Assembly: GCA_026390735.1 (NCBI GenBank)
Contig: JAPLFJ010000069.1
Coordinates: 62,001-126,000 of the forward strand
DNA length: 64,000 nucleotides
Direction: 5' to 3'
Source: Ignavibacteriota bacterium
GTDB lineage: Bacteria; Bacteroidota; Ignavibacteria; Tepidaquicellales; Tepidaquicellaceae
Positions 3,860-62,972 of the stretch are shown here, in pieces. A model generated the notes under the pieces. It searched no databases. It saw only the letters and a list, made by a program, of their open reading frames with translations, and was not told the DNA's origin. Made by a program: the position numbers and the translations under genes. The first letter of the stretch is position 1. Each line of letters begins with the position of its first letter.

Positions 3860-4167
3860 AATGTTTTATAGTCAGTTTGAGCAATATTACAAAAAATCCG
3901 AACTTTAAATAATGCAAATATAATTATATAATTTAAACATGAAGAAGGTTTTGGTTTTGGTAAATTAAGCATGTCAAAAATTATAAAACTGGGAGGACTA
4001 TGGGAGGACTTCGACCGGTAAGCGACAAGCAACCGACAAGCAACCGACAACGACCGACAAGAAATATTTAAATAGCTTAAAAACTCGTACTTATATTATT
4101 TCAATTGATAAATGGTGTGAATTGAATTAATTTAAACATACTTGTTAAAACTTAAGTCAAAAGTATT
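3860..4167. other. Divergent intergenic region with 11-bp array
   Basis: 308 bp between the divergent substrate-binding and MarC genes. It must carry both promoters. The central part is the 11-bp periodic array at 3991-4062; the flanks are plain AT-rich DNA. I see no small gene. Confidence 0.5.
3991..4062 (+). repeat. 11-bp periodic tandem array (array A)
   Basis: GGGAGGACTAT and GGGAGGACTTC are followed by units around CGACAAGCAAC. The core GAC recurs at 3996, 4007, then 4013, 4024, 4035, 4046 and 4056, so spacing is 11 bp apart from one phase jump and one 10-bp step. It shares GGGAGGACTT, TAAGCGACAAGCAA and GCAACCGACAA with the array at 30459-30579 read on the other strand. Confidence 0.8.
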
Positions 4168-4800
4168 ATGAATGAATTGTTTACGTACGGTCTTTTGTGT
4201 TTTACTTCTTTCTTTACGCTTATTAATCCTATCGGGACGATGCCAATATTTATGACAATGACGTCTCAGCTCGATGCAGAACACAGGAATAAGACTGCTA
4301 AAAAAGCAGTGATAATCGCCCTTATTTCAATCTTGTTCTTTGCTTTTTCAGGACAGATTATGTTTCAGTTTTTCGGAATTTCGGTAAACAGTTTTAAAAT
4401 TGTTGGCGGGGTTATATTTTTTATAATGGGCCTTGACATGCTCCAGGCAAGACTGGGACAGGTTAAGGTTAAAGATTCTGAGATTAAATCATACGTAAAT
4501 GATATTTCTATAACGCCGCTTGCCATTCCTATGATTTGCGGCCCTGGTGCAATCACAAATGCTATAGTTCTGATGGAACAGGCGGGCTCAATAGAAAAGA
4601 AAGCAATACTTGTTTTCGTGATTATCTTTGTTCTTGGTGTTACCTACCTTGTTCTGTTCAGTTCTTCAAAAATAATAAAGGCACTTGGCGAAACAGGGAA
4701 TAATGTGCTGATGAGGTTGATGGGTTTGATTGTGATGGTTATTGCAGTAGAGTTTTTCTTCAGCGGATTGAAGCCAATTGTGCTGGATTTCTATAAATAA
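4168..4800 (+). CDS. MarC family integral membrane protein
   Basis: 210 residues, the normal length for the MarC/YchE family, with six predicted hydrophobic segments. The N-terminus LLCFTSFFTLINPIGTMPIF and the mid-protein ITPLAIPMICGPGAITNAI (re-entrant-like Pro/Gly-rich motif) are hallmarks. These inner-membrane proteins are sometimes described as NAAT amino-acid transporters, but the substrate is generally uncertain. It is a single gene transcribed away from the substrate-binding lipoprotein. The start ATG follows an AT-rich leader. Confidence 0.93.
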   Translation: MNELFTYGLLCFTSFFTLINPIGTMPIFMTMTSQLDAEHRNKTAKKAVIIALISILFFAFSGQIMFQFFGISVNSFKIVGGVIFFIMGLDMLQARLGQVKVKDSEIKSYVNDISITPLAIPMICGPGAITNAIVLMEQAGSIEKKAILVFVIIFVLGVTYLVLFSSSKIIKALGETGNNVLMRLMGLIVMVIAVEFFFSGLKPIVLDFYK

Positions 4801-4815
4801 TTTGTGTTGTCTATG

Positions 4816-4841
4816 CATCAATTTTTCGAGGGATATTGATG
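4816..4841 (+). terminator. Weak hairpin after the MarC gene
   Basis: CATCAAT (4816-4822) pairs with ATTGATG (4835-4841). The stem is AT-rich and the following T-run is interrupted, so a terminator role is only possible. Confidence 0.3.
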
Positions 4842-5002
4842 TGTATTTTCAATATATTAAAATGTATTTCCCTGATAATACTGTAAAGTATTATGGTTTT
4901 TTGTTCTGTTGTTGATTAAGCTTTCAGATGTGTATTGGAATTTAAATAAACCGGACAAAGTTTAACTTTAAATATAATTTAACAAAACTTAATTATTGTA
5001 AC

Positions 5003-5422
5003 ATGAAAAAGGTCTTCTTACCCTTTCTTTATATTGGTTTGGTGTTTCTTATCTCCTGCAGTTCTTCAAAGGTTCAGAATAATACTGGCAGTTTATCCGC
5101 TAATCATTGGGATTTGGTTTCCATTTCAGGTAAGTTGTTAGATGCCAATGCAACAAAAACCGGTATTCCATATATGTTGTTTTCTGCGGATAATGGCTTT
5201 ACCGGCAATACAGGCTGTAATACTTTTACAGGGTCTTATAAACTTGAAAACGGTAAACTCACACTCGACCCTGGCGCAATAACAAAGATGTTCTGCGCGG
5301 ATGTTCCCGAAACAGAATTTCTGTCAGCACTCAGACAAACTACTGGTTATAAAATTACGGGTAGTGAACTTTTACTCCTGAACGGAACAACCGAATTAAT
5401 GAAACTTATACCTAAAAAATAA
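5003..5422 (+). CDS. META-domain lipoprotein (HslJ-like)
   Basis: 139 residues. Signal with lipobox LISC at about residue 19, then one META domain: WDLVSISGKLL, later NTGCNTFTGSYKLENGKLTL and a conserved Cys in TKMFC. META/HslJ proteins are small envelope proteins linked in some bacteria to stress and novobiocin resistance; the biochemical role is unknown. First gene of a compact envelope run: the next ATG is 10 bp after its stop codon. Confidence 0.88.
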   Translation: MKKVFLPFLYIGLVFLISCSSSKVQNNTGSLSANHWDLVSISGKLLDANATKTGIPYMLFSADNGFTGNTGCNTFTGSYKLENGKLTLDPGAITKMFCADVPETEFLSALRQTTGYKITGSELLLLNGTTELMKLIPKK

Positions 5423-5432
5423 ATTCTAATAT

Positions 5433-6581
5433 ATGATAAAACTTTACAAATATGTATTTGTTTTTATAATTACTCTTCTCGTTGTTAATTCCAGTTTTTC
5501 ACAGGGAAAGGACATGCCTGTCAATCTTTCTCTTGTCTATCCTGTTAGCATAAATCAGTCTAAACAGGATAATGTAAATTTCAACGTCGGAATAATCGGT
5601 TCGCAATTTAATAATCTGAAGGGTCTGGGTATCAACGGATTATACTCTGTCCTTGGGAATGATTTAAACGGATTGCAGATAAATGGTCTTTATGCCGAAA
5701 CAAGAAATAAATTAAAAGGTATTCAGTTGACCGGAGGTGCAAACGTTGTTACCAAGGGTGGTACGGGAGCGATGATTGGCGGCCTTGCTAATATGACGTT
5801 CGACGATTTCACCGGATTTCAGTTATCTACAATTGCAAACTTTGGTTTTGAGAATGTAAAAGGTGTTCAGGCATCAGTGCTTTATAATCTTGTAGGAAAA
5901 AATATAAACCTGCTTCAGGTTGCTGTCGCAGGTAATGTCGCGGGGAAGATGATGAGTGGTGCGCAGTTGTCTCTTTTGTTTAATCTTGCCGGCAATACTA
6001 ACAGCGGCATTCAGGTCGCGTCTATTAATCTTACAAAATTCCAGAGAGGTGCACAGTTTGGACTTGTAAACATTGCAGAGGATAACGATGGATTTCAGTT
6101 AGGGATTTTTAATATTGTAGATAAAAAGCAAAAAGGACTTTCGCTTGGTCTGTTTTATATGGGCGAGAAATCAAAGGTTCAGATGTTAATGTCGGGTGGT
6201 AATATATCTTATGGAAATCTGGGGTTCAGGTTCAAGACAAACAACGTTTATACAATGCTGACTCTCGGCGGTCCTGTTGCTATATCAATTACCAATAAAT
6301 CCGTTATGACAGAATACAGAGTCGGTTATTCTTTTGATTTAAAACTTCTTGACGTAAATACAGACGTTGGTTTTATGCACATTTCAAATGAAAAAGATCA
6401 GACTCCCGGAAAACCCAGCAGTAATCAGTTTGGTCTTTCGTTCCGTGCAGGTCTTGAGAAAAACATTTTCAAAAAGTTCGGACTGTTTGTTAACGCAGGT
6501 ATTCTAAGGGCTGCCGATAGTTATAATGACTCTGTCTTTAAAAATCATTTTCTTTTCGAAGGGGGGATAGTGGTATTATGA
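5433..6581 (+). CDS. Surface repeat protein resembling the LA_2272 family
   Basis: 382 residues with a signal peptide ending near SSFSQG. From about residue 45 to 245 the sequence is a tandem series of units of about 20 residues of the form GLQINGLYAE / GIQLTGGANV / GFQLSTIANF / GVQASVLYNL / GAQLSLLFNL / GIQVASINL / GAQFGLVNI. The last third looks like amphipathic beta strands (FRFKTNNVYTMLTLGG), as in an outer-membrane barrel. The repeat pattern matches what is annotated as LA_2272-type surface repeats, family function unknown. The stop overlaps the next start (ATGA), so the two are translationally coupled. Confidence 0.7.
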   Translation: MIKLYKYVFVFIITLLVVNSSFSQGKDMPVNLSLVYPVSINQSKQDNVNFNVGIIGSQFNNLKGLGINGLYSVLGNDLNGLQINGLYAETRNKLKGIQLTGGANVVTKGGTGAMIGGLANMTFDDFTGFQLSTIANFGFENVKGVQASVLYNLVGKNINLLQVAVAGNVAGKMMSGAQLSLLFNLAGNTNSGIQVASINLTKFQRGAQFGLVNIAEDNDGFQLGIFNIVDKKQKGLSLGLFYMGEKSKVQMLMSGGNISYGNLGFRFKTNNVYTMLTLGGPVAISITNKSVMTEYRVGYSFDLKLLDVNTDVGFMHISNEKDQTPGKPSSNQFGLSFRAGLEKNIFKKFGLFVNAGILRAADSYNDSVFKNHFLFEGGIVVL

Positions 6582-8104
6582 TAAAAAGATATATTTTAAT
6601 TGCCTTCGTAATTTTGTTTGCCAATATTTCGTTCTCTCAGACAGACGGGGTTGATTTTAAAAACAATGCTCGTCTTAAACTTAATTCCTCATTAAAAGAT
6701 TATTCTAAATCTTCACTCGACAGGTCTTTTGAAAGAAATATTATATTTGAAGATTCGATTCATTCCCTGGTCAGTAAGTCAACACTTCTGAATGTTCCCG
6801 GTTTAACATATGATTCTTCGTATGTTCCGAAGAAAAATTATCTCCTGCCGGTAGCAGAAATAATAGTTTTGAACATCGGTGTATGGTCTATGAGTAAATG
6901 GGTTGTTCCTCAGCCATGGGCGCAGATAAGCCTGAATTCTGTAAAAGAAAACTGGAAACATCAGTGGGTATGGGACGCAGACAACTTTTCGACAAATCAA
7001 CTTATGCATCCATACCACGGAAACCTGTACTTTAACTTTGCACGTTCGAGTGGTCTCGGGTTCTGGGAATCCGCACCTTATTCTATGGCAGGTAGCTTTA
7101 TGTGGGAAATGTGCATGGAAACAAACTATCCTTCAAGAAACGATATAATCACAACAACGCTGGGCGGTATAGCACTCGGCGAAATGACTTACCGGTTGTC
7201 ATCAAAGATTCTCGACGAAAGAACCAGAGGCGCCGAAAGAGTCTGGCGTGAAATCGGAGCATTCTTACTCGCACCTACAAGAGGTGTTAACAGATTATTC
7301 CGCGGTGAAATGGGAAAAGTTAAACAAAAGAGCAGTTATGAAATTGAAGATGTTTACAGCTCTGTTTCCGTCGGACCGAGTTTATATCACGAGCCCGGGA
7401 ATATGTACAACGGAAACGGAAACGTTTCATTAAGGCTTGACCTGTACTACGGTAACCCTTACGCCGAAAAGACAAGAAAACCATATGACTTTTTCAACGT
7501 AAAGACAATCTTTAATTTTGGCACACAACCTTTAGTTAATCAGGTTAACGTTTACGGGTTTTTATTCGGAAAGAATCTAAAGTATAAAGATGATCAAAAA
7601 ATACTCTTTGGTCTGTTCCAGCATTTTGATTACTTTAATAACATAGGTTATGAAGTTTTTGGTCAGAGTATAGGACCTGGCATTATGTATAAATTCCCGA
7701 CTAATCCAACTGTTGATTTTCAAACGAGTCTTCATTTTACCGGAATTATACTTGGCGGAGGTTCAAACATACCTGAAGCTTTTAAATATGAAGCAGATGG
7801 TACTGCATACAGGGATTATAATTTCAGCGTAGGATATACCACAAAGTTTGAAACCCTGCTTAACTTAAAGAACAGAGCGTATTTATTCCTTGGCCTGTAT
7901 AACTTTCAGTTCTATACCGAAGACGGTGCAGACGGTTCAGACAATCTGTTAATCTTTAACCCCCGTATTGGATTTGCTGTCACACCTGGAATGTATGTTG
8001 GTTCAGAAATCAATTTTTATAGAAGAACATCAAAATATGACAAGTATGGTACGTTCAAAACGGCTATTAATGAAGTAAGGTTATTTATATCAAATAGTTT
8101 TTGA
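6578..8104 (+). CDS. DUF3943 domain outer-membrane protein
   Basis: 508 residues with a signal peptide (ending SFSQ). The middle (about 100-240) has the DUF3943 signature: HPYHGNLYFNFARSSGLGFWES, then MWEMCMETNYPSRNDIITT, LGGIALGEMTYRLS and the basic ERVWREIGAFLLAPTRGVNR. The C-terminal half alternates as beta strands and ends in a strand with terminal Phe (VRLFISNSF), as expected for a barrel. Function of the family unknown. The start overlaps the previous gene by 4 bp; the end overlaps the next by TTGA. Confidence 0.85.
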   Translation: MIKRYILIAFVILFANISFSQTDGVDFKNNARLKLNSSLKDYSKSSLDRSFERNIIFEDSIHSLVSKSTLLNVPGLTYDSSYVPKKNYLLPVAEIIVLNIGVWSMSKWVVPQPWAQISLNSVKENWKHQWVWDADNFSTNQLMHPYHGNLYFNFARSSGLGFWESAPYSMAGSFMWEMCMETNYPSRNDIITTTLGGIALGEMTYRLSSKILDERTRGAERVWREIGAFLLAPTRGVNRLFRGEMGKVKQKSSYEIEDVYSSVSVGPSLYHEPGNMYNGNGNVSLRLDLYYGNPYAEKTRKPYDFFNVKTIFNFGTQPLVNQVNVYGFLFGKNLKYKDDQKILFGLFQHFDYFNNIGYEVFGQSIGPGIMYKFPTNPTVDFQTSLHFTGIILGGGSNIPEAFKYEADGTAYRDYNFSVGYTTKFETLLNLKNRAYLFLGLYNFQFYTEDGADGSDNLLIFNPRIGFAVTPGMYVGSEINFYRRTSKYDKYGTFKTAINEVRLFISNSF

Positions 8105-8733: not shown

Positions 8734-8737
8734 GTAA

Positions 8738-9703: not shown

Positions 9704-9727
9704 TATTCAATAATCAAAAACACTAAA

Positions 9728-10360: not shown

Positions 10361-10385
10361 TTAACTTAAAACAGAATATTAAAAT

Positions 10386-11015: not shown

Positions 11016-11079
11016 TAAACTGATTTATATTTTTTAAATCAGAAACTAATTAGTTAACTTAAAATAAAGGAAAAACAAA

Positions 11080-30231: not shown

Positions 30232-30250
30232 AGTAAAATCTGATTTTACT
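30232..30250. repeat. 19-bp inverted repeat
   Basis: AGTAAAATC and GATTTTACT flank a single T. It could be an operator or a weak hairpin downstream of the 509-residue gene. Confidence 0.6.
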
Positions 30251-30458: not shown

Positions 30459-30579
30459 TTCTCTCATCTTATCGATTGCTTATCGGTTTGTTTATACTTG
30501 CTTGTCGCTTAGTTCATACTCTTTTGTCGGTTGCGGCTCGATGTGCTCTCAAAGTCCTCCCAATGTCCTCAGTCATTTT
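30459..30579 (-). repeat. Long 11-bp periodic array (array C)
   Basis: The plus strand splits into consecutive 11-mers from 30470: TATCGATTGCT, TATCGGTTTGT, TTATACTTGCT, TGTCGCTTAGT, TCATACTCTTT, TGTCGGTTGCG, GCTCGATGTGC, TCTCAAAGTCC, TCCCAATGTCC. The register never slips over about 100 bp although the units diverge. The complement shares 10- to 14-bp words with array A in the same order at the GGGAGGACTT end. Confidence 0.8.
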
Positions 30580-30774
30580 TCGGTCTTATTGCATTTTCAA
30601 ATGTTCATTCTGTAATTCATACTCATTAAATTTATATTTCGGCAGTTTAAAACAAATTCCACAACTTCTACCCCGCTCACCCCCTATACTCAAAACTAAA
30701 TTCAAAATATCAACTGCGGAAAAGCAGATTATCTATTAACAATTTTAAAAATTAAAAATGAAAGGTTGCCTAAA

Positions 30775-31473
30775 ATGGCTGATTTCATAAAAACAGTCCT
30801 TGGAAAAGGACGCGGAAAAGTCGGAGACGTTGTCTTTCGCGTTTCCCACGGTAAAACAATACTAAGTTCCGTACCTGCAACTCGTACTCCGAGTACAGAT
30901 CCTGTTGTTATTAAAAGGAAAAAAAGGTTCGGACTTACGGTTAAGTTAGCTCACGCTGTGAACTATCTCTACCAGCTTAAATTCTTTTGGAAGCTCGTCG
31001 ACATTGGCTCTGCCAAAGGCTTTAGAAGTGCTTTCAATAAAATCGTTAAATTAAACTACCCTTACGTCACTTTCGATAACCTCGGTGATGATATTATGCT
31101 CGTACCTGATAGCGGTTTCGAAGTTACCGCAACGTCAATCGAGCTTACAAACACCGAAGTTAATGTTGTTCTTAATGCAATCGGAACTGATAAAGGTATA
31201 GACCTGGCAACGGAGACAAAATGCCAGTTAGCGTTAGTGTTCTTTCTGAAGTCTCCGTCAGATCCTAACAAACCGGAATTTCATTTCATTCACGTTGTTT
31301 CCGTACAGACACCCATCAGTCTCTCTAATCCGTTAACGTTTACTTTCACGTTGACGAATATTGAGAAACAGAAATTTGATGAATACTCTGTAAGAAAAGC
31401 ATTCTTTGCTTTGGTTACACTTGATGCTGATGATAAACCGGTTCGTTATTCGAACACTTTTAAATCAACATAA
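30775..31473 (+). CDS. DUF6266-like protein
   Basis: 232 residues from the ATG at 30775. An upstream in-frame TTG at 30766 would add three residues and is less likely. The N-terminus GKGRGKVGDVVFRVSHGKTI is the Gly/Lys motif seen at the start of DUF6266-type proteins of Bacteroidota. There follow a helix (KRFGLTVKLAHAVNYLYQL) and a beta-sandwich-like C-terminus with alternating strands (VSVQTPISLSNPLTFTFTL). No signal peptide. Function unknown. The following small gene repeats the N-terminal motif. It is closed by a hairpin and a strong terminator. Confidence 0.65.
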   Translation: MADFIKTVLGKGRGKVGDVVFRVSHGKTILSSVPATRTPSTDPVVIKRKKRFGLTVKLAHAVNYLYQLKFFWKLVDIGSAKGFRSAFNKIVKLNYPYVTFDNLGDDIMLVPDSGFEVTATSIELTNTEVNVVLNAIGTDKGIDLATETKCQLALVFFLKSPSDPNKPEFHFIHVVSVQTPISLSNPLTFTFTLTNIEKQKFDEYSVRKAFFALVTLDADDKPVRYSNTFKST

Positions 31474-31639: not shown

Positions 31640-31843
31640 ATGGCTATTTTAAAAGACCCAACATTCGGCAACCTCTCCGGTAGAATCGGAGACTTAGTAT
31701 TTAAACAAAGATACGGCAAAACAATTATCTGTTACATGCCTAAAAAGAACAAGAAGAATAAAAAGAATAATAACTCTTCGGATTTGCAGGATATTTCTCT
31801 GCATGATTATCTTATGAAGCATCAGCGCAAACAAAAACCCTGA
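31640..31843 (+). CDS. Short GDxVFxxxxGKTI protein
   Basis: 67 residues. LSGRIGDLVFKQRYGKTIICYMP aligns with residues 13-37 of the preceding 232-residue protein. The tail is highly basic (KKNKKNKKNNN) and then HDYLMKHQRKQKP. It is either a truncated paralogue or a genuine small family member consisting of the N-terminal motif only. It begins 60 bp after the terminator, so it probably has its own promoter. Confidence 0.6.
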   Translation: MAILKDPTFGNLSGRIGDLVFKQRYGKTIICYMPKKNKKNKKNNNSSDLQDISLHDYLMKHQRKQKP

Positions 31844-37232: not shown

Positions 37233-37342
37233 ATTTGTATTCTTATTTAAATTTAGTATATAATGTTATAAACGTTCTAACCTCTTAAAAGTTTTAAATC
37301 TCTTTGCCTCTTTATTTCATTGCTCCTTGCCTGAAAATATTT

Positions 37343-37425
37343 TCTCCGTGTTCTCTGTGACTTCTCTGTGGTCTCCGTGAACCTATTCTAATAATATGTG
37401 TTAATTTGTGTAATTCGTGGTAGAA
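37343..37425. repeat. GTG-periodic intergenic repeats
   Basis: CTCCGTG, CTCTGTG, CTCTGTG and CTCCGTG occur at 9-11 bp spacing (37343-37381). Then GTGTTAATTTGTGTAATTCG followed by TGG (about 37398-37420) is a relative of 35421-35440. Confidence 0.5.
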
Positions 37426-37432: not shown

Positions 37433-38668
37433 CTAATTCCTCTTCACCGGTTTATACTCCTTCTCCGCATCCACCTTTTCCACATACGCACTATTCCACA
37501 CTCTTTCAAAAACTATCTCCAGCGCTTCATTCACTTTCCCGCTTTCGATTATCAGGGTTGCATTCCTGCTGTCATAAAAATAATCCCTCTCCCAGTTAGA
37601 CGTACTTATCCACGAAATATCATCGTCTGCAATGAAAAACTTGCAGTGTTGAACCCTTGCATAAGGAATGTATCCTTTGCTGAACTGAGGTACTGTACTG
37701 AACTTAATCTCTATTCCATTTACCTGCGAAAGTTCTTTAATCGCATCGATTGCATCCTTTTTAATCGCCCAGTCAGAAAGTATTATCTTAACGTCAACGC
37801 CGCGTGCAGCTGCCTTGCGGAGTTCTTTGTCAATCTTATCATAAGGAGATTTCTTGCTCTTGCCCTTTGTTGAGTATGAATAAAACTGAATGCACAACCT
37901 GTTCTTTGCACCTTTAATTGTTTTCAGAAGTTCGGTTTCTTCTTTAGCAAAACCTTTGTTCACGACATCCTTCGGACTGAAGGCAGGGTACAACTTCACC
38001 GTTCCGTAATCAGTTGTTTCAATCTTCAGCATCTTCTTCGCCGTATAAACTTTGTCTGCGCTTTCTTTTAAAAGTGATGTCATAGTCTCTTCATCCTGAT
38101 TATCGCAAAGAGTCCAGTCAGTCTCAAACACCCGCATAAACATATCCGCAAACTCTTTATGCTTTATCCTCACACCCATTTCGTGAATATGTTTCAATGC
38201 GCGCCAGTCGAAGTTCTGACTTCCAAGGAACAAATCCTCGCCGTCAACCACAAAATATTTCGCGTGCATTACGCCACCTCCGATTTTATTGAAAGGAATC
38301 TTCTTTACAGTAATGTTCGGAATGTTTTCAAAGTCATTTGCAGATTCTTTATACCTTTCAAAGAACTTTCCATCAATCATAATCCTTACTTTTACACCTC
38401 TTTCGGCCGCATCCTTAATCTCGCTTATTACACTCTCAAGCGGCTCACCCTTTTCATTCGCAATATAAAACGTCTCCATATCTATCGTAGTCTTTGCCGA
38501 CTTAATCATCTCAACCCACACTTCAGTGGCTCTCGGAAGTTTCGACTGTTCCAGTATAGTTTCCGAAGGCACAGTTTCCACTAACTGAAACAAAGTCTGT
38601 GTAAACCCCGCAACGTTCAGCGATGCAAAAAGTACAATACACCCCACTATCCATTTAAATAACTTCAT
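37433..38668 (-). CDS. Secreted phospholipase D-like protein with two HKD motifs
   Basis: 411 residues with signal peptide (LNVAGFTQ). Two HxKx4D motifs: HAKYFVVDGEDLFLGSQNFD and HCKFFIADDDISWISTSNW. Each is preceded by the usual AAERGVKVRIMIDG and AAARGVDVKIILSD strands. The two halves make one bilobed catalytic site in PLD enzymes, which act on phosphodiesters of lipids or nucleic acids. The overall layout resembles eukaryotic PLD3/4-like and bacterial secreted PLD proteins. An exported localisation favours lipid or extracellular DNA as substrate; this is inference. Confidence 0.9.
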   Translation of the reverse strand: MKLFKWIVGCIVLFASLNVAGFTQTLFQLVETVPSETILEQSKLPRATEVWVEMIKSAKTTIDMETFYIANEKGEPLESVISEIKDAAERGVKVRIMIDGKFFERYKESANDFENIPNITVKKIPFNKIGGGVMHAKYFVVDGEDLFLGSQNFDWRALKHIHEMGVRIKHKEFADMFMRVFETDWTLCDNQDEETMTSLLKESADKVYTAKKMLKIETTDYGTVKLYPAFSPKDVVNKGFAKEETELLKTIKGAKNRLCIQFYSYSTKGKSKKSPYDKIDKELRKAAARGVDVKIILSDWAIKKDAIDAIKELSQVNGIEIKFSTVPQFSKGYIPYARVQHCKFFIADDDISWISTSNWERDYFYDSRNATLIIESGKVNEALEIVFERVWNSAYVEKVDAEKEYKPVKRN

Positions 38669-38843: not shown

Positions 38844-39017
38844 CTATTTGTTATTGGCAAAAATCTCTTTTGCTTTCTTCCTTACGTTCTTCCCGTTAAT
38901 TGATACTATTACATACTCATCATTCTTTATCTTTTCCTTAACCATTCGTTTATGAGCAAGTAAAATTCCTTTTTTAATAGAGTTTTCTATCTTTTTATGC
39001 TTTTGTAGTTCTGTCAT
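38844..39017 (-). CDS. 57-aa small basic protein overlapping the zeta-toxin-like gene (candidate antitoxin)
   Basis: Its ATG (39017-39015) lies inside the last codons of the upstream kinase gene, in another frame, giving a 23-bp overlap and likely translational coupling. The protein begins MTELQKHKKIENSIKKGILL. It has a Lys-rich helix (KKGILLAHKRMVKEKIK) followed by a strand pair (YVIVSINGKNVRKKAKEIF) and stops at TAG. The helix plus xxxxxGKxVxxxA layout resembles the small proteins frequently encoded beside zeta-toxin-family kinases. An antitoxin role is inferred from position and size. Confidence 0.7.
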   Translation of the reverse strand: MTELQKHKKIENSIKKGILLAHKRMVKEKIKNDEYVIVSINGKNVRKKAKEIFANNK

Positions 39018-39582
39018 AAGTGTCTGTTATATTTTTGTAAATGATTTTATTATAAATCCTTATTTCCGATTTACCAAACCCTGATGCGACTTGAACAGGC
39101 TTAATATAAGAATTGTCGAAAATATACCAGTTGTCTGAATAGTCCTTAAAAATTTTGTACAAGTTTAATAATCCTTTATAATACCTTCTTCTTATAATAT
39201 CTTCAGGAACAAAGTGACCGCCAAGTCTTTTTCTTTCATTAACTCTCTGGATTGCAAGATTATGGTTGTTAAGCCAGATATACAATAATGTTATTTCAAA
39301 TTTATTCTTTTTCGCCTCTATGAAAATATTCTTATAACTTAATGTTGTCAGCGTAGTCTCAAATGCAAATGTTTCTTTCGACTGAATTAAATGTTTAATT
39401 CTGTCAAGCATTAGCCTTCCTGCTTGAAAATCAGCAGCTTTCGGATTCAACGGCGAAAGCCCGTATGCAATAGAATCCGCATTAACAAAATTATCACATT
39501 TTAAAAGTTCTGGGAGCAATGTAAACGAAGTGGTTGTTTTACCCGCCCCATTACAACCCGAAATCACATACATCTTTCTCAT
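38995..39582 (-). CDS. Zeta-toxin-like P-loop kinase
   Basis: 195 residues. Walker A GCNGAGKTTTS at residues 9-19. Then NADSIAYGLSPLNPKAADFQAGRLM (the usual Asn-Ala-Asp and substrate region), FAFETTLTTLSYKN and a lid with Arg pairs (RVNERKRLGGHFVPEDIIRRRYYKGL). This is the order of zeta-toxin family proteins. They phosphorylate nucleotide sugars (UDP-GlcNAc in PezT-type toxins), but many chromosomal homologues are uncharacterised kinases. It lacks the long C-terminus of PezT. It sits divergently from dnaG and overlaps a 57-residue gene, so a two-gene toxin-antitoxin operon is likely. Confidence 0.85.
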   Translation of the reverse strand: MRKMYVISGCNGAGKTTTSFTLLPELLKCDNFVNADSIAYGLSPLNPKAADFQAGRLMLDRIKHLIQSKETFAFETTLTTLSYKNIFIEAKKNKFEITLLYIWLNNHNLAIQRVNERKRLGGHFVPEDIIRRRYYKGLLNLYKIFKDYSDNWYIFDNSYIKPVQVASGFGKSEIRIYNKIIYKNITDTYDRTTKA

Positions 39583-40114
39583 AACTTAATATACTTTATT
39601 CTTTTAAAATTTTCACTGTATACGGCTGCCATTTTCTTACACTTTTCATCTCCCCTTTGTTATTTTTATACATTTTCTTCTCATCAGAATTCTAGGCACT
39701 ATGATTCAACTTTAAATTAACTAAACTCTTTGTTCTTTAAAATGAATAATATAATATTATGAATAGAGTAAGTTTACGACGGCAAAACCTTATCCTTTTT
39801 GCGAAGTATATATAAAGGAATACTTTTACGTGGCAAAATCCCTAATTTAGTTGTGTATTATAATAGAGGGGGAACATCCACTGTAAACATATCCCAGACC
39901 CACATCGTCTTACCATCGGTCTCCTATCGGTCTCTCATCGGTTTATCTTGCTCAAAACCTGCTTTATCATAGCTTTAAACCCCTCCTTTTCGACGCTTTC
40001 TGTTTTGGTTTAATTTACCTGCGAATAACTCAGTCAATCCTGCCTGAATCTTTTATCATCACCCTCTGTTTTTTCCGTATTATCAAAAACTCAATTTCTG
40101 TATATTTTAATAGA
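39583..40114. other. Divergent intergenic region before dnaG
   Basis: 532 bp containing promoters for the kinase operon (minus) and dnaG (plus), and the 11-bp array at 39904-39947. No supported small gene. Confidence 0.5.
39904..39947 (-). repeat. 11-bp periodic array (array D)
   Basis: ATCGTCTTACC, ATCGGTCTCCT, ATCGGTCTCTC and ATCGGTTTATC begin at 39904, 39915, 39926 and 39937, exactly 11 bp apart. On the complement the unit reads ACCGATxxGAG, close to the ACCGACAAGCA unit of array A. Confidence 0.8.
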
Positions 40115-41980
40115 ATGAGAATCCCTGACGAAATATTCGAAGAAATATTACACGCTAATGACATCGTTGATGTTATCTCCTCTTACGTAACAGTAAAAAG
40201 GCGCGGTAAGTCTTTTCTTGCATTATGTCCGTTTCATCCCGACAAAAATCCCTCTATGCATATTTCACAGGACAGACAGGTTTATCACTGCTTCTCGTGC
40301 AAGGCTGGCGGAAATGTGATTACGTTCGTTCAGGAGTATGAAAAGATTTCTTCAATGGAGGCAGTTGAAAAACTCGCTCAGCGTATAGGGATTAATCTCG
40401 GTAAGTTTTCCGCAAAGCCTGAAGTGTCCAATGAAATTGCAAAACTGTATGAAATAAATAAAATAGCAGCAAGGTTCTTCTATGATAACCTTGTGAACGT
40501 TGGCGGCGAAGAACGGGAAATGGTCTACGACTACCTTAAGAACCGCGGACTTGAAAAAGATACACTGACAAAGTTCGGAATCGGATACGCACGTGCCGGA
40601 TGGCACTCGCTTGAAAATTATTTTATAGAAGAGGGGACGTACACACGAGAAGACCTTGAACTTGCCGGACTGCTCATAAAATCTGAGAAGGACGGAAAGT
40701 TTCACGACAGGTACAGAGGAAGACTTATATTCCCGATTTTTAACGAAGGCGGAAAGGTGATTGGTTTTGGCGGAAGGGTAATTAAGAAGGATGACGATTC
40801 GGCAAAGTATATCAATTCTCCCGAGACACGTGTTTACTATAAGAGCAAAACTCTTTACGGACTGAACTTTGCAAAAGACCATATACGCTCGCACGATTCT
40901 GTACTGCTCGTCGAAGGTTATATGGATGTTGTTTCGCTGGCACACGCAGGAATCCAGAACGTTGTCGCATCAAGCGGTACGGCACTCACGGAAGAACAGG
41001 TTCATCTGATTTCGCGTTACACAAAAAACATATTCTTAATATACGATGCCGACCTTGCAGGAATAAAAGCCGCAAAGAGAGGTATTGAAATTATACTCGA
41101 ACAGGGATTAAACATTAAAGTTGTTTCACTGCCCGACGGCGAAGACCCGGATTCTTACGTCAGAAGCAAAGGTCAACAGGAATTTGAAAAACAGCTCCAG
41201 TTCAGCAAGTCTGTCATAAATTTTATCAGCGATACTTATAAGAATGCAGGTAAGTTATCAACGCCTGAAGAGAAATCTGACTTTGTAAAGGAAATCATTC
41301 AGTATCTGGTAAGGATTCCCGATAAGATAAGGATTTCTTTCTACGTGAAAGAACTATCGGATACGTACCAGTTGTACGAATCTGATTTACGCGACGAACT
41401 CAACAGGGCATACGCAGATTATAAGAAAACACAGTTTCCCAAGACATCTGTTGTCCTTCCTGTAACGAGCAGGGAAAGCAAAAAGGATAAGGATAAACGC
41501 CCGTCACAGGCAGAAGTAGAACTCGTTGGACTGTTCGTTAAATGCGACTATAAGAACAAATCGTACATCCCCGGCCTCAATTATCTGGTGGATAATCTCT
41601 ACATAGATTACATTACTAACGCAACAATTTTAAAAGCCGTTGAACTTCTTCTTGATGAATGGCATAATGACGGCAAAATTGACGTTGCAAAACTGCTATC
41701 TACAATCGAAGATGAAGAGGTCAGGAACCTTCTGCATACTCAGTCGAGCCAGTTGTATGAAATTACCAAGACTGACCATCTGCCCGCTGACAGTATTCTG
41801 GCAATCGTTGAAAATACTCCTGTGAATTATCTGAAACTCGCAACCGACATAATAAACATGCTGAAACTCCAGAGTGTGAACAGGAAAATCCGTGCAGCCC
41901 TCAAAGACCCTAAAAACCATACCGAAGGCCTCGGATATCTTGCAGAAAAGCGCAAAATAAACGACAAGAACAAACAATAA
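40115..41980 (+). CDS. dnaG: DNA primase
   Basis: 621 residues, normal length. CHC2 zinc finger C38-H41-C59-C62 (CPFH ... CFSC). The polymerase core includes KFGIGYA and GRVIFPIFNEGGKVIGFGGR-type strands (here GRLIFPIFNEGGKVIGFGGR). TOPRIM motifs are VLLVEGYMDVVSL (Glu about 266) and IYDADLAGIKAAKRG (about 310). The C-terminal 150 residues are helical and should bind DnaB helicase. It synthesises RNA primers at the replication fork. It stands alone, not in the rpsU-dnaG-rpoD order of proteobacteria. Confidence 0.97.
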   Translation: MRIPDEIFEEILHANDIVDVISSYVTVKRRGKSFLALCPFHPDKNPSMHISQDRQVYHCFSCKAGGNVITFVQEYEKISSMEAVEKLAQRIGINLGKFSAKPEVSNEIAKLYEINKIAARFFYDNLVNVGGEEREMVYDYLKNRGLEKDTLTKFGIGYARAGWHSLENYFIEEGTYTREDLELAGLLIKSEKDGKFHDRYRGRLIFPIFNEGGKVIGFGGRVIKKDDDSAKYINSPETRVYYKSKTLYGLNFAKDHIRSHDSVLLVEGYMDVVSLAHAGIQNVVASSGTALTEEQVHLISRYTKNIFLIYDADLAGIKAAKRGIEIILEQGLNIKVVSLPDGEDPDSYVRSKGQQEFEKQLQFSKSVINFISDTYKNAGKLSTPEEKSDFVKEIIQYLVRIPDKIRISFYVKELSDTYQLYESDLRDELNRAYADYKKTQFPKTSVVLPVTSRESKKDKDKRPSQAEVELVGLFVKCDYKNKSYIPGLNYLVDNLYIDYITNATILKAVELLLDEWHNDGKIDVAKLLSTIEDEEVRNLLHTQSSQLYEITKTDHLPADSILAIVENTPVNYLKLATDIINMLKLQSVNRKIRAALKDPKNHTEGLGYLAEKRKINDKNKQ

Positions 41981-43333: not shown

Positions 43334-43335
43334 CA

Positions 43336-55903: not shown

Positions 55904-55920
55904 GATATAATAAATAATAA

Positions 55921-55970: not shown

Positions 55971-56004
55971 TAATTCAGAATTTAAAACTTATTCTTCTTC
56001 GACT

Positions 56005-57321: not shown

Positions 57322-57351
57322 AATATTTCCTTTCCGTTAGGATTTTAATTA

Positions 57352-57420
57352 GGTCAACACAGGTTGACTTTGTAATATATTGTTACAAAACGTATTATTT
57401 ATCATTAGAAAAGTCAACAC
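57352..57420. promoter_or_regulatory. Nested inverted repeats upstream of the T9SS gene (candidate operator)
   Basis: GTCAAC-ACAG-GTTGAC (57353-57368) is adjacent to TTTGTAA-tatattg-TTACAAA (57369-57389). A further GTCAACAC lies at 57413-57420, exactly 60 bp from the first. They sit 31-100 bp before the minus-strand ATG, where a regulator would bind. Confidence 0.4.
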
Positions 57421-57596
57421 CTTAATACAGTACTTTTTTTTTACAATTGTTAGAGGTTAGTCTGATAACTTTTAGAAAAAAAACATACAGAGATATGATA
57501 TGTTATCTGCACTATGTAAGGAAATAAACAGAATATTGTTACCTGGTTATCTTTGAAAATATCAGGTCTAATAAATTTATGTAATAATTTCTATCC

Positions 57597-58799
57597 CTAC
57601 TTCACAAAGAAGACATTCTCAAGTTTTTCAATCTTCAGCAGTGTTGACATCATAAAGTCCATAGATGAGTCGGGCTTTAATAAGTCGTTCAGTATTATGA
57701 ACTCAGCGGAAAACAGTGCATCCTGAACCACTTCTTCTATATGGTCGTTAAACGGTTTCCACGACGACTGCATCGTGTATCCCTTTATTCCCCACATAAG
57801 GTTCTTGTTTATGTTACGTATCCTTGCATCTATGGAAAGCGAGCCTTTGCCGTGCGAATTGTCCGAAAGGTCAACTCCCTTTATTTCGTATATCCTGTGG
57901 TCGTCTTTTAATATCGTAGAGTGTGCAATGCCTTCAAGGTAGAGGTTTTTGTAGCATTCCCATTTGATTGTGTCGAGTTCGTTTTCTTCCGCATCTATCT
58001 TTGAAATCAGTTCAATCATTTTCTTCACATATTTAATAAGCTCAACGGGTTTTTGTTTTTCAATAGAGTGAAGTTCAAGAAGTATATTCTTTCTCGAGAA
58101 TGCCTTGTCCTCTTCTTTTAATTTTCCTGTAATAAAGGAGATTATAAGGTTGTAGTGGTTTGTAAGAATTTTCACTCCGTTTTGTATATCTTCGGGAATG
58201 TATTCCTCGATGAATGCATTGTACTTGTCCGCATCTATTCCTTTTCCGTCTTTAGACGTTGTCAGAAGGAGCAGATCCTCAATAGAATCGTGCATAACGG
58301 CAGTGGAACTATAATTGTATTTTCCTGTATCGTTCATCTTCAGCTGAAAAACGCAGGCGCCGACTCTGTTCAGGTGCGAAGATGCACTTATCTCGCACTT
58401 CCTTTTCAAATTCATCTGTGAATATAAGCCCAGTATCTTTCTGACGTAAGGCGCATACTCTCCGTAAAAAATCTCAAGCGCTTTAACCTCGGGTACATTA
58501 TTCAGCAGAATTGATGCGTGTATCTTCTGGTAGTTAACGTCGTTTTCTACTTCCCTTCTTGCCAGTGCAATTTCCATAGGAGCATCGTCGTTCGTTGCTC
58601 TTACAATCCTGTTCTTCAGCTCGGCACCAACAAGGTATTCTTTTATTATAGACTGAATTATCTTCGACTTTTTACCGCCATACAGTTTTTCCAGCAGCGG
58701 TAAATCGGGACACCTGCCGTTTAATATGTCCTGCAGTATCGAAAATGCAGTTTTAAAGCTTTTTTGAGTTTTTAATAGTTCAATATCGGAATTTATCAT
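57597..58799 (-). CDS. HD-domain protein resembling the hydrolase domain of SpoT
   Basis: 400 residues, cytosolic. Residues 140-180 read SSHLNRVGACVFQL then STAVMHDSIEDLL. The H142 ... H170-D171 ... E174-D175 layout is that of the (p)ppGpp-hydrolase HD domain (HPLAVA ... ALLHDVVED). The distal metal ligand is likely D310 or D313 in KGVDLSDNSHG. No synthetase, TGS or ACT domain is present; the first 130 residues are helical and unfamiliar. It could hydrolyse (p)ppGpp or a related nucleotide. Alternative: a more general HD phosphohydrolase. Confidence 0.65.
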   Translation of the reverse strand: MINSDIELLKTQKSFKTAFSILQDILNGRCPDLPLLEKLYGGKKSKIIQSIIKEYLVGAELKNRIVRATNDDAPMEIALARREVENDVNYQKIHASILLNNVPEVKALEIFYGEYAPYVRKILGLYSQMNLKRKCEISASSHLNRVGACVFQLKMNDTGKYNYSSTAVMHDSIEDLLLLTTSKDGKGIDADKYNAFIEEYIPEDIQNGVKILTNHYNLIISFITGKLKEEDKAFSRKNILLELHSIEKQKPVELIKYVKKMIELISKIDAEENELDTIKWECYKNLYLEGIAHSTILKDDHRIYEIKGVDLSDNSHGKGSLSIDARIRNINKNLMWGIKGYTMQSSWKPFNDHIEEVVQDALFSAEFIILNDLLKPDSSMDFMMSTLLKIEKLENVFFVK

Positions 58800-58879
58800 C
58801 GCCTTTTATTATTCTTCTATGTTATCTATTTTATAAGATAATTTCAACTTTAAATTTAATCTTACTTTTATATAAAGCT

Positions 58880-61333
58880 ATGAAAAAATATTTATTCATC
58901 CTGATGTTTCTTATCGCACCTGTCTTAATGTTCGCACAGGACGTGAACATTCCGAACAATGTTTACGATAAAGCAGACGATTACACAAAATCCAGGAAAG
59001 CATTCCAGCGTGAGCGCTGGTTCTTTGAACAGAGAATGTATCCGAACAATTTCATTCCAGAAGGTGCGTATCAGAAAGCACAGGATGAAAAAGCAAAACT
59101 CCGCAGGGATAAGGGGTTTATATATCCTTCAACGGTAAGCTGGTTTAACCTCGGACCGACACCGGGATATTACTTTTCCTACGGAAACATTTCTTCAAGA
59201 ATAGTAACCGTTAAGTTCGACCCCGTTAACCCGAACACTATATACATCGGTGCTGCATACGGCGGTGTTTGGAAGTCAACAAACAGCGGTCTTAACTGGA
59301 CTCCGAAAACTGATAATGAAATATCACTCTCTTCAGGTGCACTGGCAATAGACCCCGTAAACCCGAACATCATTTATTACGGAACGGGTGAAGCCACATA
59401 CAGCGGTTCTTCATACTACGGACGCGGACTCTTGAAATCGACAGACGGCGGAGACACGTGGGTGAATATTCGTGCAGGTTTCGTAACCGACACATATTTC
59501 TCAAGGATTGTAATAAAGCCGGGTAACTCAAATATGGTGTTTGCAGCAGTAGGCACTTACGGATTGTATAAAAGTACTAATGCAGGTATGAACTGGACTC
59601 AGGCAGTAAGCGGAAGATGCGACGACATTGTTTTTTCACCCGACGGCACAAAAGCATACTTAGTAGGTTCAGGCGTGCAGTACCGTTATTCCACTGACGG
59701 CGGTGCAACATTTCCCTCACTGAGTTTTCCTCCGGGAATGGGTACCAGAAATCATATAGCAATATGTAAATCTGCACCTTCTGTACTTTATATCTCAAAA
59801 TATTCAGGAACAACAATCTCTATCTATAAATCGACTGACGGAGGACTTAACTATTCACAGATATCGGTAGGAACAGATTTTAACGGCGGTCAGGCGTGGT
59901 ACGATTTTTATATGCACGTAAATCCTTTTAACCCTGATGTAGCCTACGTCGGTGCTGTTGATATATGGAGAACCACAGACGGCAACACATTCGTAAACAA
60001 TACAAACGGATACGGCGGCGGTAACGTGCACGTTGATGAACACAATATGGACTTCCACCCGACCGATTCAAACGTATGCGTTGCAGTAAGCGACGGCGGT
60101 ATATGGTATTCATCGAATAAAGGTGATACCTGGATAAACAGAAACGCAGGGTTAACACTAACTCAGTTTTACAGAATGACTTCCGACCCTAATAATGCAA
60201 ACCATCTTGCAGGCGGCACACAGGACAACGGAACTCAAAGAACTCTCGGAACTACCAACTGGGCTGCTGCGTTTGGCGGTGACGGAGGCGAAGTATGCTT
60301 TTCACCTACAAACACAAATTATATATTAGGCGAAACACAGAACAACGGAATGATGCGCTCCGTGAACAACGGCGCAGGCTGGTCTAATGCAGTAACAGGA
60401 TTAACAGGCTCAGGTGCGTGGGTTGCACCAATTGTAGCACATCCTGATTCTGCAGTGGTATTTTATACAGCACGTTCGCAGGTCTTTAAAACAACAAACA
60501 TCGGTGCAAGCTGGACAGCAATATCATCAGGTACTACAGGAACTATCAGCCAGATGGCAATAAGTAAATCCGAACCGATGATTATGTACGCAACATCAGG
60601 GGCAAACGTATTCAAATCAACCGACGGCGGAAACACGTTCTTTGGTTCAAACAACGGCGTTCCCGGTAAAACAATAACGGGTATATATTTCCATCCCGAC
60701 TCTTCAAAAGTAGGAATACTCACTCAGTCAGGTTTCGGCGGAAACAAAATTCATAAAACTATAGACGGCGGATTAAACTGGTTCAGCATAAACGGAGATT
60801 TACCCGACTCTCCGATTAACGACGGACTGATTTACTATCCGGGACATTCCACAAACGTGATACTCGCAGCAACAGACGTAGGTGTGTTTATGACGACTAA
60901 CAACGGCACTAACTGGACAGAACTCGCAAACGGACTTCCTAACACTGTGGCAATGCACCTCGATTACAATCAGGCATCGGGTAAACTCAGAATAGGTACA
61001 CACGGACGCGGAGTGTTTGAACTTAGCGGTCAGCTTATCGGAATCACGAATTACAATTCAGATATACCAGATAAGTTCACGCTGAAACAAAACTACCCGA
61101 ACCCGTTCAACCCTACTACAAGAATATCTTTCGGAGTAGTAAAGTCAGGATTCGTAAACCTGAAAGTCTACGACGCACTTGGCCGGGAAGTATCAAGCCT
61201 CGTAAGCGAAAACCTGAAACCCGGCAACTACGAAGTAACCTTCCGCGGAGACAATCTTTCAAGCGGAATGTATTTCTATAAGTTATCCGTAAACGACTTT
61301 ACTGAAACGAAAAAGATGTTGATGGTAAAGTGA
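58880..61333 (+). CDS. T9SS-secreted Asp-box (sortilin/sialidase-like) propeller protein
   Basis: 817 residues, signal peptide (VLMFAQ). Two tandem propeller-like halves with about ten Asp-boxes of the form KSTDGGxxW: KSTNSGLNW, KSTDGGDTW, KSTNAGMNW, YSTDGGATF, YSSNKGDTW, KTTNIGASW, KSTDGGNTF, KTIDGGLNW and MTTNNGTNW. Segments such as DPVNPNTIYIGAAYGGVW are typical of VPS10/xyloglucanase-type proteins. It ends with a T9SS domain (NYPNPFNPTTRISF, VYDALGREVSSL, SGMYFYKLSVNDF). I see no clear catalytic pair, so enzymatic activity is uncertain. Confidence 0.85.
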   Translation: MKKYLFILMFLIAPVLMFAQDVNIPNNVYDKADDYTKSRKAFQRERWFFEQRMYPNNFIPEGAYQKAQDEKAKLRRDKGFIYPSTVSWFNLGPTPGYYFSYGNISSRIVTVKFDPVNPNTIYIGAAYGGVWKSTNSGLNWTPKTDNEISLSSGALAIDPVNPNIIYYGTGEATYSGSSYYGRGLLKSTDGGDTWVNIRAGFVTDTYFSRIVIKPGNSNMVFAAVGTYGLYKSTNAGMNWTQAVSGRCDDIVFSPDGTKAYLVGSGVQYRYSTDGGATFPSLSFPPGMGTRNHIAICKSAPSVLYISKYSGTTISIYKSTDGGLNYSQISVGTDFNGGQAWYDFYMHVNPFNPDVAYVGAVDIWRTTDGNTFVNNTNGYGGGNVHVDEHNMDFHPTDSNVCVAVSDGGIWYSSNKGDTWINRNAGLTLTQFYRMTSDPNNANHLAGGTQDNGTQRTLGTTNWAAAFGGDGGEVCFSPTNTNYILGETQNNGMMRSVNNGAGWSNAVTGLTGSGAWVAPIVAHPDSAVVFYTARSQVFKTTNIGASWTAISSGTTGTISQMAISKSEPMIMYATSGANVFKSTDGGNTFFGSNNGVPGKTITGIYFHPDSSKVGILTQSGFGGNKIHKTIDGGLNWFSINGDLPDSPINDGLIYYPGHSTNVILAATDVGVFMTTNNGTNWTELANGLPNTVAMHLDYNQASGKLRIGTHGRGVFELSGQLIGITNYNSDIPDKFTLKQNYPNPFNPTTRISFGVVKSGFVNLKVYDALGREVSSLVSENLKPGNYEVTFRGDNLSSGMYFYKLSVNDFTETKKMLMVK

Positions 61334-61415
61334 CGGGAGTCACTTTACCGGAAATCCCGATTCTCTTAATCGGGAATGTTCATTAAATAGATATAGATTA
61401 ATATTTATTTATATC

Positions 61416-61447
61416 AAGCCCGCTCATCGAAGCGGGCTTTTCTTTTC
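61416..61447 (+). terminator. Rho-independent terminator
   Basis: AAGCCCGCT/AGCGGGCTT stem (9 bp) with loop CATCGA, followed by TTCTTTT. Confidence 0.85.
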
Positions 61448-61509
61448 CCTTATATAGCATCCCCTCGTTCCTGCAATTTTCTTAAGCAGTAACCTCTCAT
61501 TATTACATT

Positions 61510-61538
61510 TTTGCAATTAAATATTATAATTATATTTG
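61510..61538 (+). promoter_or_regulatory. Bacteroidota-type promoter candidate
   Basis: TTTG (61510-61513), 17 bp, then TATATTTG (61531-61538), matching the TTTG / TAnnTTTG pattern. It is 32 bp before the ATG at 61571, which is directly preceded by GGAGTGAGGA. Confidence 0.45.
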
Positions 61539-61570
61539 AGTAGTCAATCTCAACTTAAACGGAGTGAGGA

Positions 61571-62824
61571 ATGAAGCTAAGAATAATGTTTTTTGTATTA
61601 GTGTTTATATTAATAAACATTACATTCCTTACTGTTAATAGAAAATTATCATATTGCAATACATACCATTCAACATCTTTGCCCGATACTACAAAACCCG
61701 TAATTACACATATACCCATTAATTTCTGTCCAAGATACGGATGGCCTGCTTTGGTCAGTACGGTTGTATCAGACAGCAGTGGAATAGATTCTGTCTGGGT
61801 GAAATGGTATAAAAATAATCCTTCTACGATGAACCGTGAATTCAGACTGAATAACACAAGCGGTAATAATTATTCTCAAAGGTTCAACTCGTATTTCTCG
61901 GATGTATATTATGATGATATTATTTACTACAGAATATTTGCTCAGGATAATTCTGCTAATCATAATAGAGATTCTACACCGATTTATAATATATTAATTA
62001 CTTCTGCCTCAGTTTGTCAGGTTGGAACAGGAACTGACTCCTCAAAATTTCCCTTCTCTACTTACTGGATGGACTGCAGAACACAAATGCTGTTTAACTC
62101 TACTGATATAAGTGCATGTGGAACGCATAATGGAAATATTACAGGAATAGGATTTAAAGTGTTTTCAGTTGCTCCACAGATTATGAACGGTTTTAATATT
62201 AGGTTCCAGACTACAACTCAAACATCTTTAACGGGGTTTGTTAATTCAGGCTGGCAAACTGTATATTCGGGAACTTATGCTGTACAGGATACAGGCTGGC
62301 AATTTATTAATTTCCAGAATCCTAATTTCTGGTACCAGCAAAACACCAATTTATTAGTAGAAATATGTTTTCATAATACTTCCTACACTGAATATTCTTA
62401 TGTTTATGCAACTCAGGCTATCGGAATGACCTGGGGATACTATATGGATAACATACCGGGTTGTACTATGACGGGAGGAAGTATGCAGACTAAAAGACCA
62501 AATATAATATTTTTTATTAACCCAATTGTTGGTGCTAACGGAAACAGTAATAATATTCCGGATAAATATATATTGTATCAAAACTATCCGAATCCGTTCA
62601 ATCCTGTCACAAAAATAAATTATAATATAGCCAAAAATGGTTTTGTAAGTTTAAGAGTTTATGACATGCTCGGAAGGGAAATCCGCACTCTTGTAAATGA
62701 AGAGAAGCCCGCAGGCTCATACTCCGTAGATTTCAACGCCACTGAATTTTCCACAGGTGTCTATTTCTACAAACTGGAATCAAAAGAATTCACTGACGTC
62801 AAAAGAATGCTGTTGATTAAGTGA
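61571..62824 (+). CDS. T9SS-secreted protein with Ig-like and carbohydrate-binding-like domains
   Basis: 417 residues with an N-terminal hydrophobic segment (IMFFVLVFILINITFL). Residues 40-140 read as an Ig-like strand domain (VSTVVSDSSGIDSVWVKWY). Residues 150-320 have VGTGTDSSKFPFSTYWMDCRTQML, a module frequent in FCB-group secreted proteins. The sorting domain ends the chain: NYPNPFNPVTKINY, VYDMLGREIRTL, TGVYFYKLESKEF and KRMLLIK. Role unknown; it has its own promoter candidate and terminator. Confidence 0.83.
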   Translation: MKLRIMFFVLVFILINITFLTVNRKLSYCNTYHSTSLPDTTKPVITHIPINFCPRYGWPALVSTVVSDSSGIDSVWVKWYKNNPSTMNREFRLNNTSGNNYSQRFNSYFSDVYYDDIIYYRIFAQDNSANHNRDSTPIYNILITSASVCQVGTGTDSSKFPFSTYWMDCRTQMLFNSTDISACGTHNGNITGIGFKVFSVAPQIMNGFNIRFQTTTQTSLTGFVNSGWQTVYSGTYAVQDTGWQFINFQNPNFWYQQNTNLLVEICFHNTSYTEYSYVYATQAIGMTWGYYMDNIPGCTMTGGSMQTKRPNIIFFINPIVGANGNSNNIPDKYILYQNYPNPFNPVTKINYNIAKNGFVSLRVYDMLGREIRTLVNEEKPAGSYSVDFNATEFSTGVYFYKLESKEFTDVKRMLLIK

Positions 62825-62851
62825 TTCCTAACAAAAATTGTGTTTATAACC

Positions 62852-62884
62852 AAAAGCCCGCTCATCAAAGCGGGCTTTTTTATT
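62852..62884 (+). terminator. Rho-independent terminator
   Basis: AAAAGCCCGCT/AGCGGGCTTTT stem (11 bp), 6-nt loop, T-run following. Nearly identical to the one at 61416. Confidence 0.88.
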
Positions 62885-62920
62885 AGCAAAAGTTTTTATA
62901 AAAAGGGTCCGGATTCTTAA

Positions 62921-62972
62921 GACTAATCAGAGACCAAGGATAGACCAAGGATAGACCAAGATAAGACTATCG
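62921..62972 (+). repeat. 11-bp periodic array (array E)
   Basis: GACTAATCAGA, GACCAAGGATA, GACCAAGGATA, GACCAAGATAA and GACTATCG start at 62921, 62932, 62943, 62954 and 62965, exactly 11 bp apart. Located between the T9SS gene and the convergent Nramp gene. Confidence 0.85.

Follow-up and report, generated by a model that had tools for sequence, protein, structure and literature searches.

Intergenic arrays of 11-bp period and an associated protein family in an Ignavibacteria genome

What keeps short intergenic arrays at an 11-bp spacing while the sequence of their units drifts? The question is raised by a stretch of 64,000 nucleotides (the window, G000:C56:62001-126000) in G000, an Ignavibacteria metagenome-assembled genome (MAG) of 4.02 Mb, where a sequence-only reading had pointed out five such arrays. 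We find that arrays of this period lie upstream of most of the genes that we read from one multi-copy protein family. In our estimate there is an even chance that the arrays are sites for the members of this lineage-specific family, which would then form cognate protein-array pairs with one protomer per helical turn.

Association of the arrays with one gene family

The genome-wide survey covered an 854-kb sample of G000, with 94 kb of intergenic DNA, and shuffled controls. It returned 25 intergenic arrays at lag 11 and none in the shuffles, next to 19 at lag 7 (with harmonics) and 0 to 2 at lags 8-10, 12, and 13. An excess at lag 11 across the genome was the test by which the sequence-only reading had asked to be judged, and that excess is present, though lag 7 is enriched too. 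It is limited to G000 and its closest relative, the sister species G004 (LaPlata-15m bin-535 MAG, whose contig 425 is our L059); elsewhere we counted one array in 37 kb of G002, one in 27 kb of other members of the taxonomic family, and 0 to 1 in order-level genomes. The contigs of G004 were partly picked for their array content, and hence no rate is claimed for that species. For GAC at four consecutive 11-bp steps we counted 21 occurrences in G000 and 19 in G004 (0 and 7 for the reversed pattern), and three successive AGACYAANNAN units are found in these two alone among 294 genomes of the class. Unlike lag 11, the lag-7 (heptamer) excess is class-wide. The heptamer tandem arrays, which are independent of the 11-bp arrays, include an AAGAATT/AAGAATC array of about 40 units in G002 (L127:4251) as well as AGTTATG and AATTAGT types.

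Annotation of the genes downstream of arrays brought to light a family of small proteins (about 230-270 aa) with the N-terminal pattern M(A/P)K...LGK..GKxGDxxF. A profile built from five members and run against 22 genomes matched 40 proteins in G000, 25 in G004, one in G008 (a different genus), and none in 19 further relatives, a few of the matches being fragments; this copy-number distribution parallels that of the arrays. In an alignment of 24 members (A5), G10, G14, G17, W72, and P107 are invariant, the N terminus is glycine-rich and basic, and the C-terminal part is divergent. The members scanned gave no meaningful match in Pfam, NCBIfam, PHROG, PADLOC, or PDB, and the protein-array system could not be placed in any known family. 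At the subset of loci scanned, the neighbors of the family genes were ordinary chromosomal genes. A Cas9-like protein of 1500 aa (LGLDIGTNSIG, read by eye; L103:9868-14367, G000 C1:149868-154367) is encoded divergently to one family member, with the array between the two genes.

About half of the 65 family loci in G000 and G004 were read for arrays. Among members with at least 300 bp of upstream DNA read (n = 33), 25 carry an upstream array, defined as a lag-11 score of at least 13 within 700 bp, as compared with 27 among 540 genes outside the family (odds ratio 59, P = 1e-22). The same count at other lags gave five members each at lags 7 and 9, one at lag 12, and none at lags 8, 10, and 13. 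The arrays lie 5-512 bp, mostly 50-290 bp, upstream of the member genes, and the single member in G008 likewise has an array of its own, of the TTATCTTGCCT type. The units of these owned arrays mostly differ between members, as illustrated by TGCGGTGAGAA, AATCCACNACT, TGAAAGCGGGG, TTCACGYYAGT, CATCGGTCTCC, TCGACCNNNNN, CTTCTCGTATG, and others. Unit similarity nevertheless tracks protein identity when the arrays are read in gene orientation (Mantel r = 0.18, P = 0.0015), whereas their reverse complements give no significant correlation; the relation persists when pairs above 50% identity are left out (P = 0.003).

In the window itself, the longest array precedes a member of this family, a connection overlooked in the sequence-only reading. 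The features concerned are as follows.

3991..4062, minus strand: orphan array, TTGTCGGTTGC units followed by GTCCTCCCA units (P < 0.001); resembles the owned array at 30469.
30469..30579, plus strand: array owned by the family member in the window, with units TTATCGATTGC TTATCGGTTTG ... TTGTCGGTTGC, then GTCCTCCCAAT-type; about 190 bp separate its end from the gene that follows.
30766..31473, plus strand: family member of 235 aa, N terminus LGKGRGKVGDVVF (profile search).
31640..31825, plus strand: N-terminal part, about 62 aa long, of another family member further downstream (G000:C56:93640-93825, E = 7.4e-8).
39832..39862, plus strand: promoter-like motif GGCAAAA-N17-TATTATA, array-associated.
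39904..39947, plus strand: orphan array, four CATCGGTCTCC units, upstream of dnaG (local shuffles); its unit is that of the L293 array.
40115..41980, plus strand: dnaG (DNA primase), downstream of the 39904 array (NCBIfam TIGR01391, E = 4.6e-139).
62920..62969, plus strand: array from the commonest subfamily (AGACYAANNAN; in reverse, TTRGTCTNNNN).
63001..63030, plus strand: promoter-like motif GGCAAAA-N16-TATTATA, adjoining the 62921 array.

Tested locally against 1000 dinucleotide shuffles each, four of the five arrays first proposed bear out the 11-bp period: those at 3991, 39904, and 62921 (P < 0.001 each at lag 11) and that at 30459 (P = 0.001 at lag 11 and 0.019 across all lags 5-15). The looser array at 30249 does not, as its CTCTAA copies (30249, 30261, 30272, 30284) advance by 12, 11, and 12 bp and lag 11 falls short of significance (P = 0.069). 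The recurrence of ATCG at 39904, 39915, 39926, and 39937 and of GAC at 62921, 62932, 62943, 62954, and 62965 is exact, as had been claimed, and TCG in the 30470 array stands at 30472, 30483, 30505, 30527, and 30538 (steps of 11, 22, 22, and 11 bp). To call the period strict was a slight overstatement, for at 3991 the register is lost at the 3' end (GAC at 4046, 4052, and 4056). The GACC/ACCGA core said to be common to all units is found in many arrays (AGACYAA, ACCGAY) and is missing from others (TTCTCGTATGT, CACTTCAAACG, TCCACTNATAG, and more). Literature searches brought up no account of arrays of 11-bp period from this phylum.

The array at 3991 lies between the divergent genes 1955-3859 (minus strand) and 4168-4800 (plus strand, a MarC/NAAT transporter). 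The gene of a Zeta-toxin-like ATPase (38995-39582, Pfam E = 2.9e-7) and dnaG are divergent, with the 39904 array between them; a phospholipase D-like two-domain protein at 37433-38668 has a below-cutoff match to DISARM DrmC. At 37342-37380 the window holds a TCTCCGTG/TCTCTGTG repeat with a period of about 20 bp, and repeats of this CACAGAG type are present elsewhere in the genome too.

Conservation of the register and copies at other genes

At six of the first seven loci tested, an 11-bp array stands at the orthologous place in G004; the array at C58:10310 is absent there. At C1:57253 the units differ between the species, AGACYAA and ACCGAC against GACCGAGAGAA, and the 11-bp period is kept, so that units can evidently turn over while the period stays. 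Two further arrays are kept in place, one preceding rpsL (C43) and one, changed at one end, preceding the histidyl-tRNA synthetase gene (C1:124554); the dnaG array is present in G004 in register. Three other places differ, that at C28 being reduced, that at C37 replaced, and that at C333 found in G004 only. At the C37 place, G000 has a TTCTCGTATGT array and G004 (L247:11880-12300, C470) a 21-bp-period array, TCATCACGTTCAATCTCGGGG. Some G004 arrays contain a 22-bp higher-order duplication.

Six aligned arrays have no gaps within the compared stretch, with identities of 86% in the core, 48% in the spacer, and 66% in the flank. When periods of 5 to 16 were tried on five arrays, substitutions proved to depend on the unit column at 11 alone (P = 0.0002). 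The register is conserved as well in the orthologous owned arrays L293/L284 and L299/L292. No array precedes dnaG in G001-G003 or rpsL in G002 and G003; the arrays are therefore probably additions of this lineage and would not be essential to genes of the dnaG or rpsL type in general.

Several arrays away from family genes (orphan arrays) match the owned array of a particular member, each orphan array having been put through 28 comparisons with p corrected for them. The dnaG array at 39904 matches that of member L293 (G000:C32:89846; p = 0.001), those at C37 and C68:168026 match L290 (p = 0.001), that at C58:170569 matches L288 (p = 0.001), and that at C58:170276 matches L297 (p = 0.004). L290 and L288 are members in G004, while the arrays at C37, C68:168026, and C58:170569 that match them are in G000. 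The 3991 array matches the array of the window's own member at 30469 (p = 0.022), and the two have a common two-part build, TTGTCGGTTGC units followed by GTCCTCCCA units.

The AGACYAA subfamily

Searched with the model of the AGACYAA units (R1), G000 yields 21 places and G004 yields 17. Selected by the core of TTRGTCT-NNNN, the units number 54 in G000 and 43 in G004, the latter count being slightly inflated by two overlapping contigs. Their four-base spacer has shifted as a set: ATGA occupies 12 of the 54 units in G000, and GTCC is found in 14 of the 43 in G004 as against one of the 54 in G000.

Relative to genes these arrays point either way, and they have two settings. In type I, four units have a TGACANNNNTGTCA palindrome on either side, at a palindrome spacing of 94-95 bp, the whole making a module of 109 bp, and all seven intergenic TGACANNNNTGTCA palindromes of the sample are part of such modules. 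In G000 these are the following.

Type I modules: L026:17433-17541, L110:7790-7898, L117:18750-18858, and L121:10578-10685.

The palindromes lie at the module ends, and no target-site duplication was evident by eye. Arrays and palindromes resemble copies in the same species, and the spacer DNA clearly resembles its orthologue in one of two orthologous pairs. Such within-species likeness is what co-evolution with a trans-acting factor would give, although gene conversion may produce it too. One type I copy adjoins an insertion sequence (IS) transposase gene. In type II, the array lies near GGCAAAA-N16/17-TATTATA; intergenic GGCAAAA falls within 160 bp of an array in 10 of 20 cases (P = 5e-6).

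Other explanations of the 11-bp arrays were tried and set aside. As simple gene promoters they have contexts no different from those expected from the intergenic supply, GGCAAAA-TATTATA often points into an oppositely oriented gene, and tRNA promoters show no resemblance to that motif. Array-bearing intergenic regions are not enriched in other short repeats, as a repeat graveyard would be. In viral contigs AGACYAA matched nothing but two unrelated simple repeats, and the type I module has no plasmid match, which speaks against spread by viruses or plasmids. For Rho-utilization sites, on which no direct test was made, the pyrimidine strand is more often antisense in tandem contexts (8 to 3), the wrong way round.

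A palindrome, TCTCA-N3-TGAGA, occurs 14 times in intergenic DNA and twice within genes in 854 kb, often paired exactly 20 bp apart (G000 C1 and C68: L026:8149-8190, L102:16884-16919, L038:19205-19240, and L110:12915-12950). In both G000 and G004 it also stands close to the AGACYAA array that precedes rpsL, and it looks like an operator family distinct from the arrays.

Competing readings and known systems

We propose that each family protein would bind a private unit in the array at its own gene, with protomers most likely head to tail, one per 11-bp turn, on DNA rather than on RNA, and that the bound protein probably controls its own gene. Copies of a unit elsewhere (dnaG, 3991, C37, C68:168026, C58:170276, C58:170569) would serve its protein as sites in trans. 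If unit and protein diverge in step, the period would be conserved while the sequence drifts. Selection for one site per helical turn, as the sequence-only reading had suggested, fits the data; its further thought of a single generic nucleoid protein does not, because units mostly differ between members and the arrays are tied to a multi-copy family. The wider picture, in which dozens of paralogous sequence-specific binding proteins have private 11-bp codes at their own genes and copies scattered to other genes, including dnaG, as a self-expanding, evolvable set with a fixed geometry and sequences free to drift, we regard as falling a little short of an even bet.

Several observations weigh against protein-array pairing. 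Eight of the 33 members have no array at the threshold used, several of them being the second gene of a tandem pair, and the association was first noticed on sample members that are also counted among the 33, although most of these were found later by protein profile with arrays disregarded. The Mantel correlation is weak. Profile and PDB searches of members revealed no recognizable DNA-binding domain, and a single-sequence fold prediction was unusable (pLDDT 39). Loci and cores were chosen from G000, which gives the conservation figures an ascertainment bias, and the column-dependent differences could arise in part from homogenization within arrays. Orphan arrays have no preferred gene context, some lying between convergent genes, and comparison with 27 owned arrays gave no owner gene for the AGACYAA array at 62921.

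The readings that compete with it are all less probable in our judgment. In autogenous control at the level of RNA, which we think unlikely, the member mRNA would carry the array in its 5' leader and the protein would sit on repeated RNA, one protomer per 11 nt. The distances at which the arrays precede the genes, the protein-unit correlation in gene orientation only, the glycine-rich and basic N terminus, and the dnaG array downstream of a promoter-like motif would all suit it. Against these stand the folds of array RNA, which are not stable and no better than those of shuffles (z -1.7 to +1.0), the several orphan arrays between convergent genes, and the AGACYAA arrays in either orientation; Rfam has no match for the arrays and in the window yields one tRNA only. 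A mobile cassette in which gene and array move together, the array being a terminal or recombination site and the orphans remnants of past copies, deserves about the same low credence. Place and register are kept between the species at most orthologous loci compared, searches of phages, plasmids, and viral contigs gave no relatives of the family, and the units of owned arrays are mostly distinct, as those of a single copied element would not be; yet high copy number, patchy distribution, member fragments such as that at 31640-31825, the lack of arrays upstream of dnaG (G001-G003) and rpsL (G002, G003), and the dispersed 109-bp AGACYAA modules with palindromic ends are what such a cassette might leave.

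Neutral minisatellites, with 11-mers duplicated by slippage and arrays persisting by chance, are more doubtful still. Slippage-type heptamer arrays are common in the class, some G004 arrays have the 22-bp duplications noted above, and units have turned over at C1:57253. Lag 11, however, stands far above lags 8, 9, 10, 12, and 13, and the arrays are strongly linked to one gene family. As the sole cause, the 11-mer slippage offered by the sequence-only reading is disfavored because the alignable orthologous arrays (six) lack internal gaps and their substitutions are bound to the 11-bp register. We did not find the unstable copy number and freedom from register constraint by which minisatellites were tested for, yet other loci have been lost, reduced, or turned over. 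Least probable of all is that the arrays are operators of OmpR/PhoB-type response regulators, which use 11-nt direct repeat units. TTRGTCT-NNNN does have the form of a PHO box, seven conserved and four variable positions, but G000 and G004 encode three such regulators and their array-free sister species two or three (PF00486), and the many unrelated units are tied to an unrelated gene family.

If the protein-array pairs bind as we infer, dozens of protein/target-site pairs of fixed geometry would be available from sequence comparison alone, giving a direct route to a recognition code and its evolution and a source of orthogonal regulators, and lineage-specific change upstream of genes such as dnaG would be explained. 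Should the arrays act in RNA, they would represent a new repeated-leader control system. On DNA or RNA alike, a family absent from the main libraries gains a testable function.

Among known proteins, we take the DUF6266 proteins of Bacteroidota to resemble the family in their glycine-rich N terminus (ILGxxxGKVGxxV..RP), similar length, and multicopy nature, a likeness rather than a demonstrated relation. The DUF6266 profile of Pfam did not match five members at E up to 5 or ten more at E up to 1, and literature searches returned no description of DUF6266. Typical ParR proteins are smaller than those of the array-linked family. Among known repeats, the STRR repeats of cyanobacteria, usually of 7-bp units and of unknown function (PMC2670836), are, like simple sequence repeats, similar to ours as short degenerate tandem repeats in intergenic DNA; ours differ from STRR in being of 11 bp, tied to a gene family, and conserved in register. 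ParMRC-type partition systems have direct repeats of about 10-20 bp adjoining the gene of the binding protein, ParR; the repeats make up parC, the centromere, as in the type II partition of plasmid R1. The parC repeats lie near the gene of the protein that binds them, R1 ParR requires at least two 11-bp repeats, and from family to family the repeats change in concert with the specificity of ParR (PMC9426499). Repeats next to the gene of the (here putative) binding protein are the common trait, seen in the 25 members above. The present system is chromosomal and has tens of copies in each genome; the neighbors scanned at a subset of loci included no actin-like ParM, and Pfam, NCBIfam, and PDB sequence searches of members gave no ribbon-helix-helix match. 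PHO boxes are 11-nt direct repeats with seven conserved and four variable positions (PMC4415409), of which PhoB and PhoP bind several per operator head to tail (PMC4415409, PMC7866108). TTRGTCT-NNNN meets this form, but there a regulator has one consensus, whereas here the family genes mostly carry different units, and the few OmpR-type regulators do not follow the arrays in distribution. By analogy, PHO boxes and R1 parC show that an 11-bp direct-repeat geometry is a workable one for the sites that we propose.

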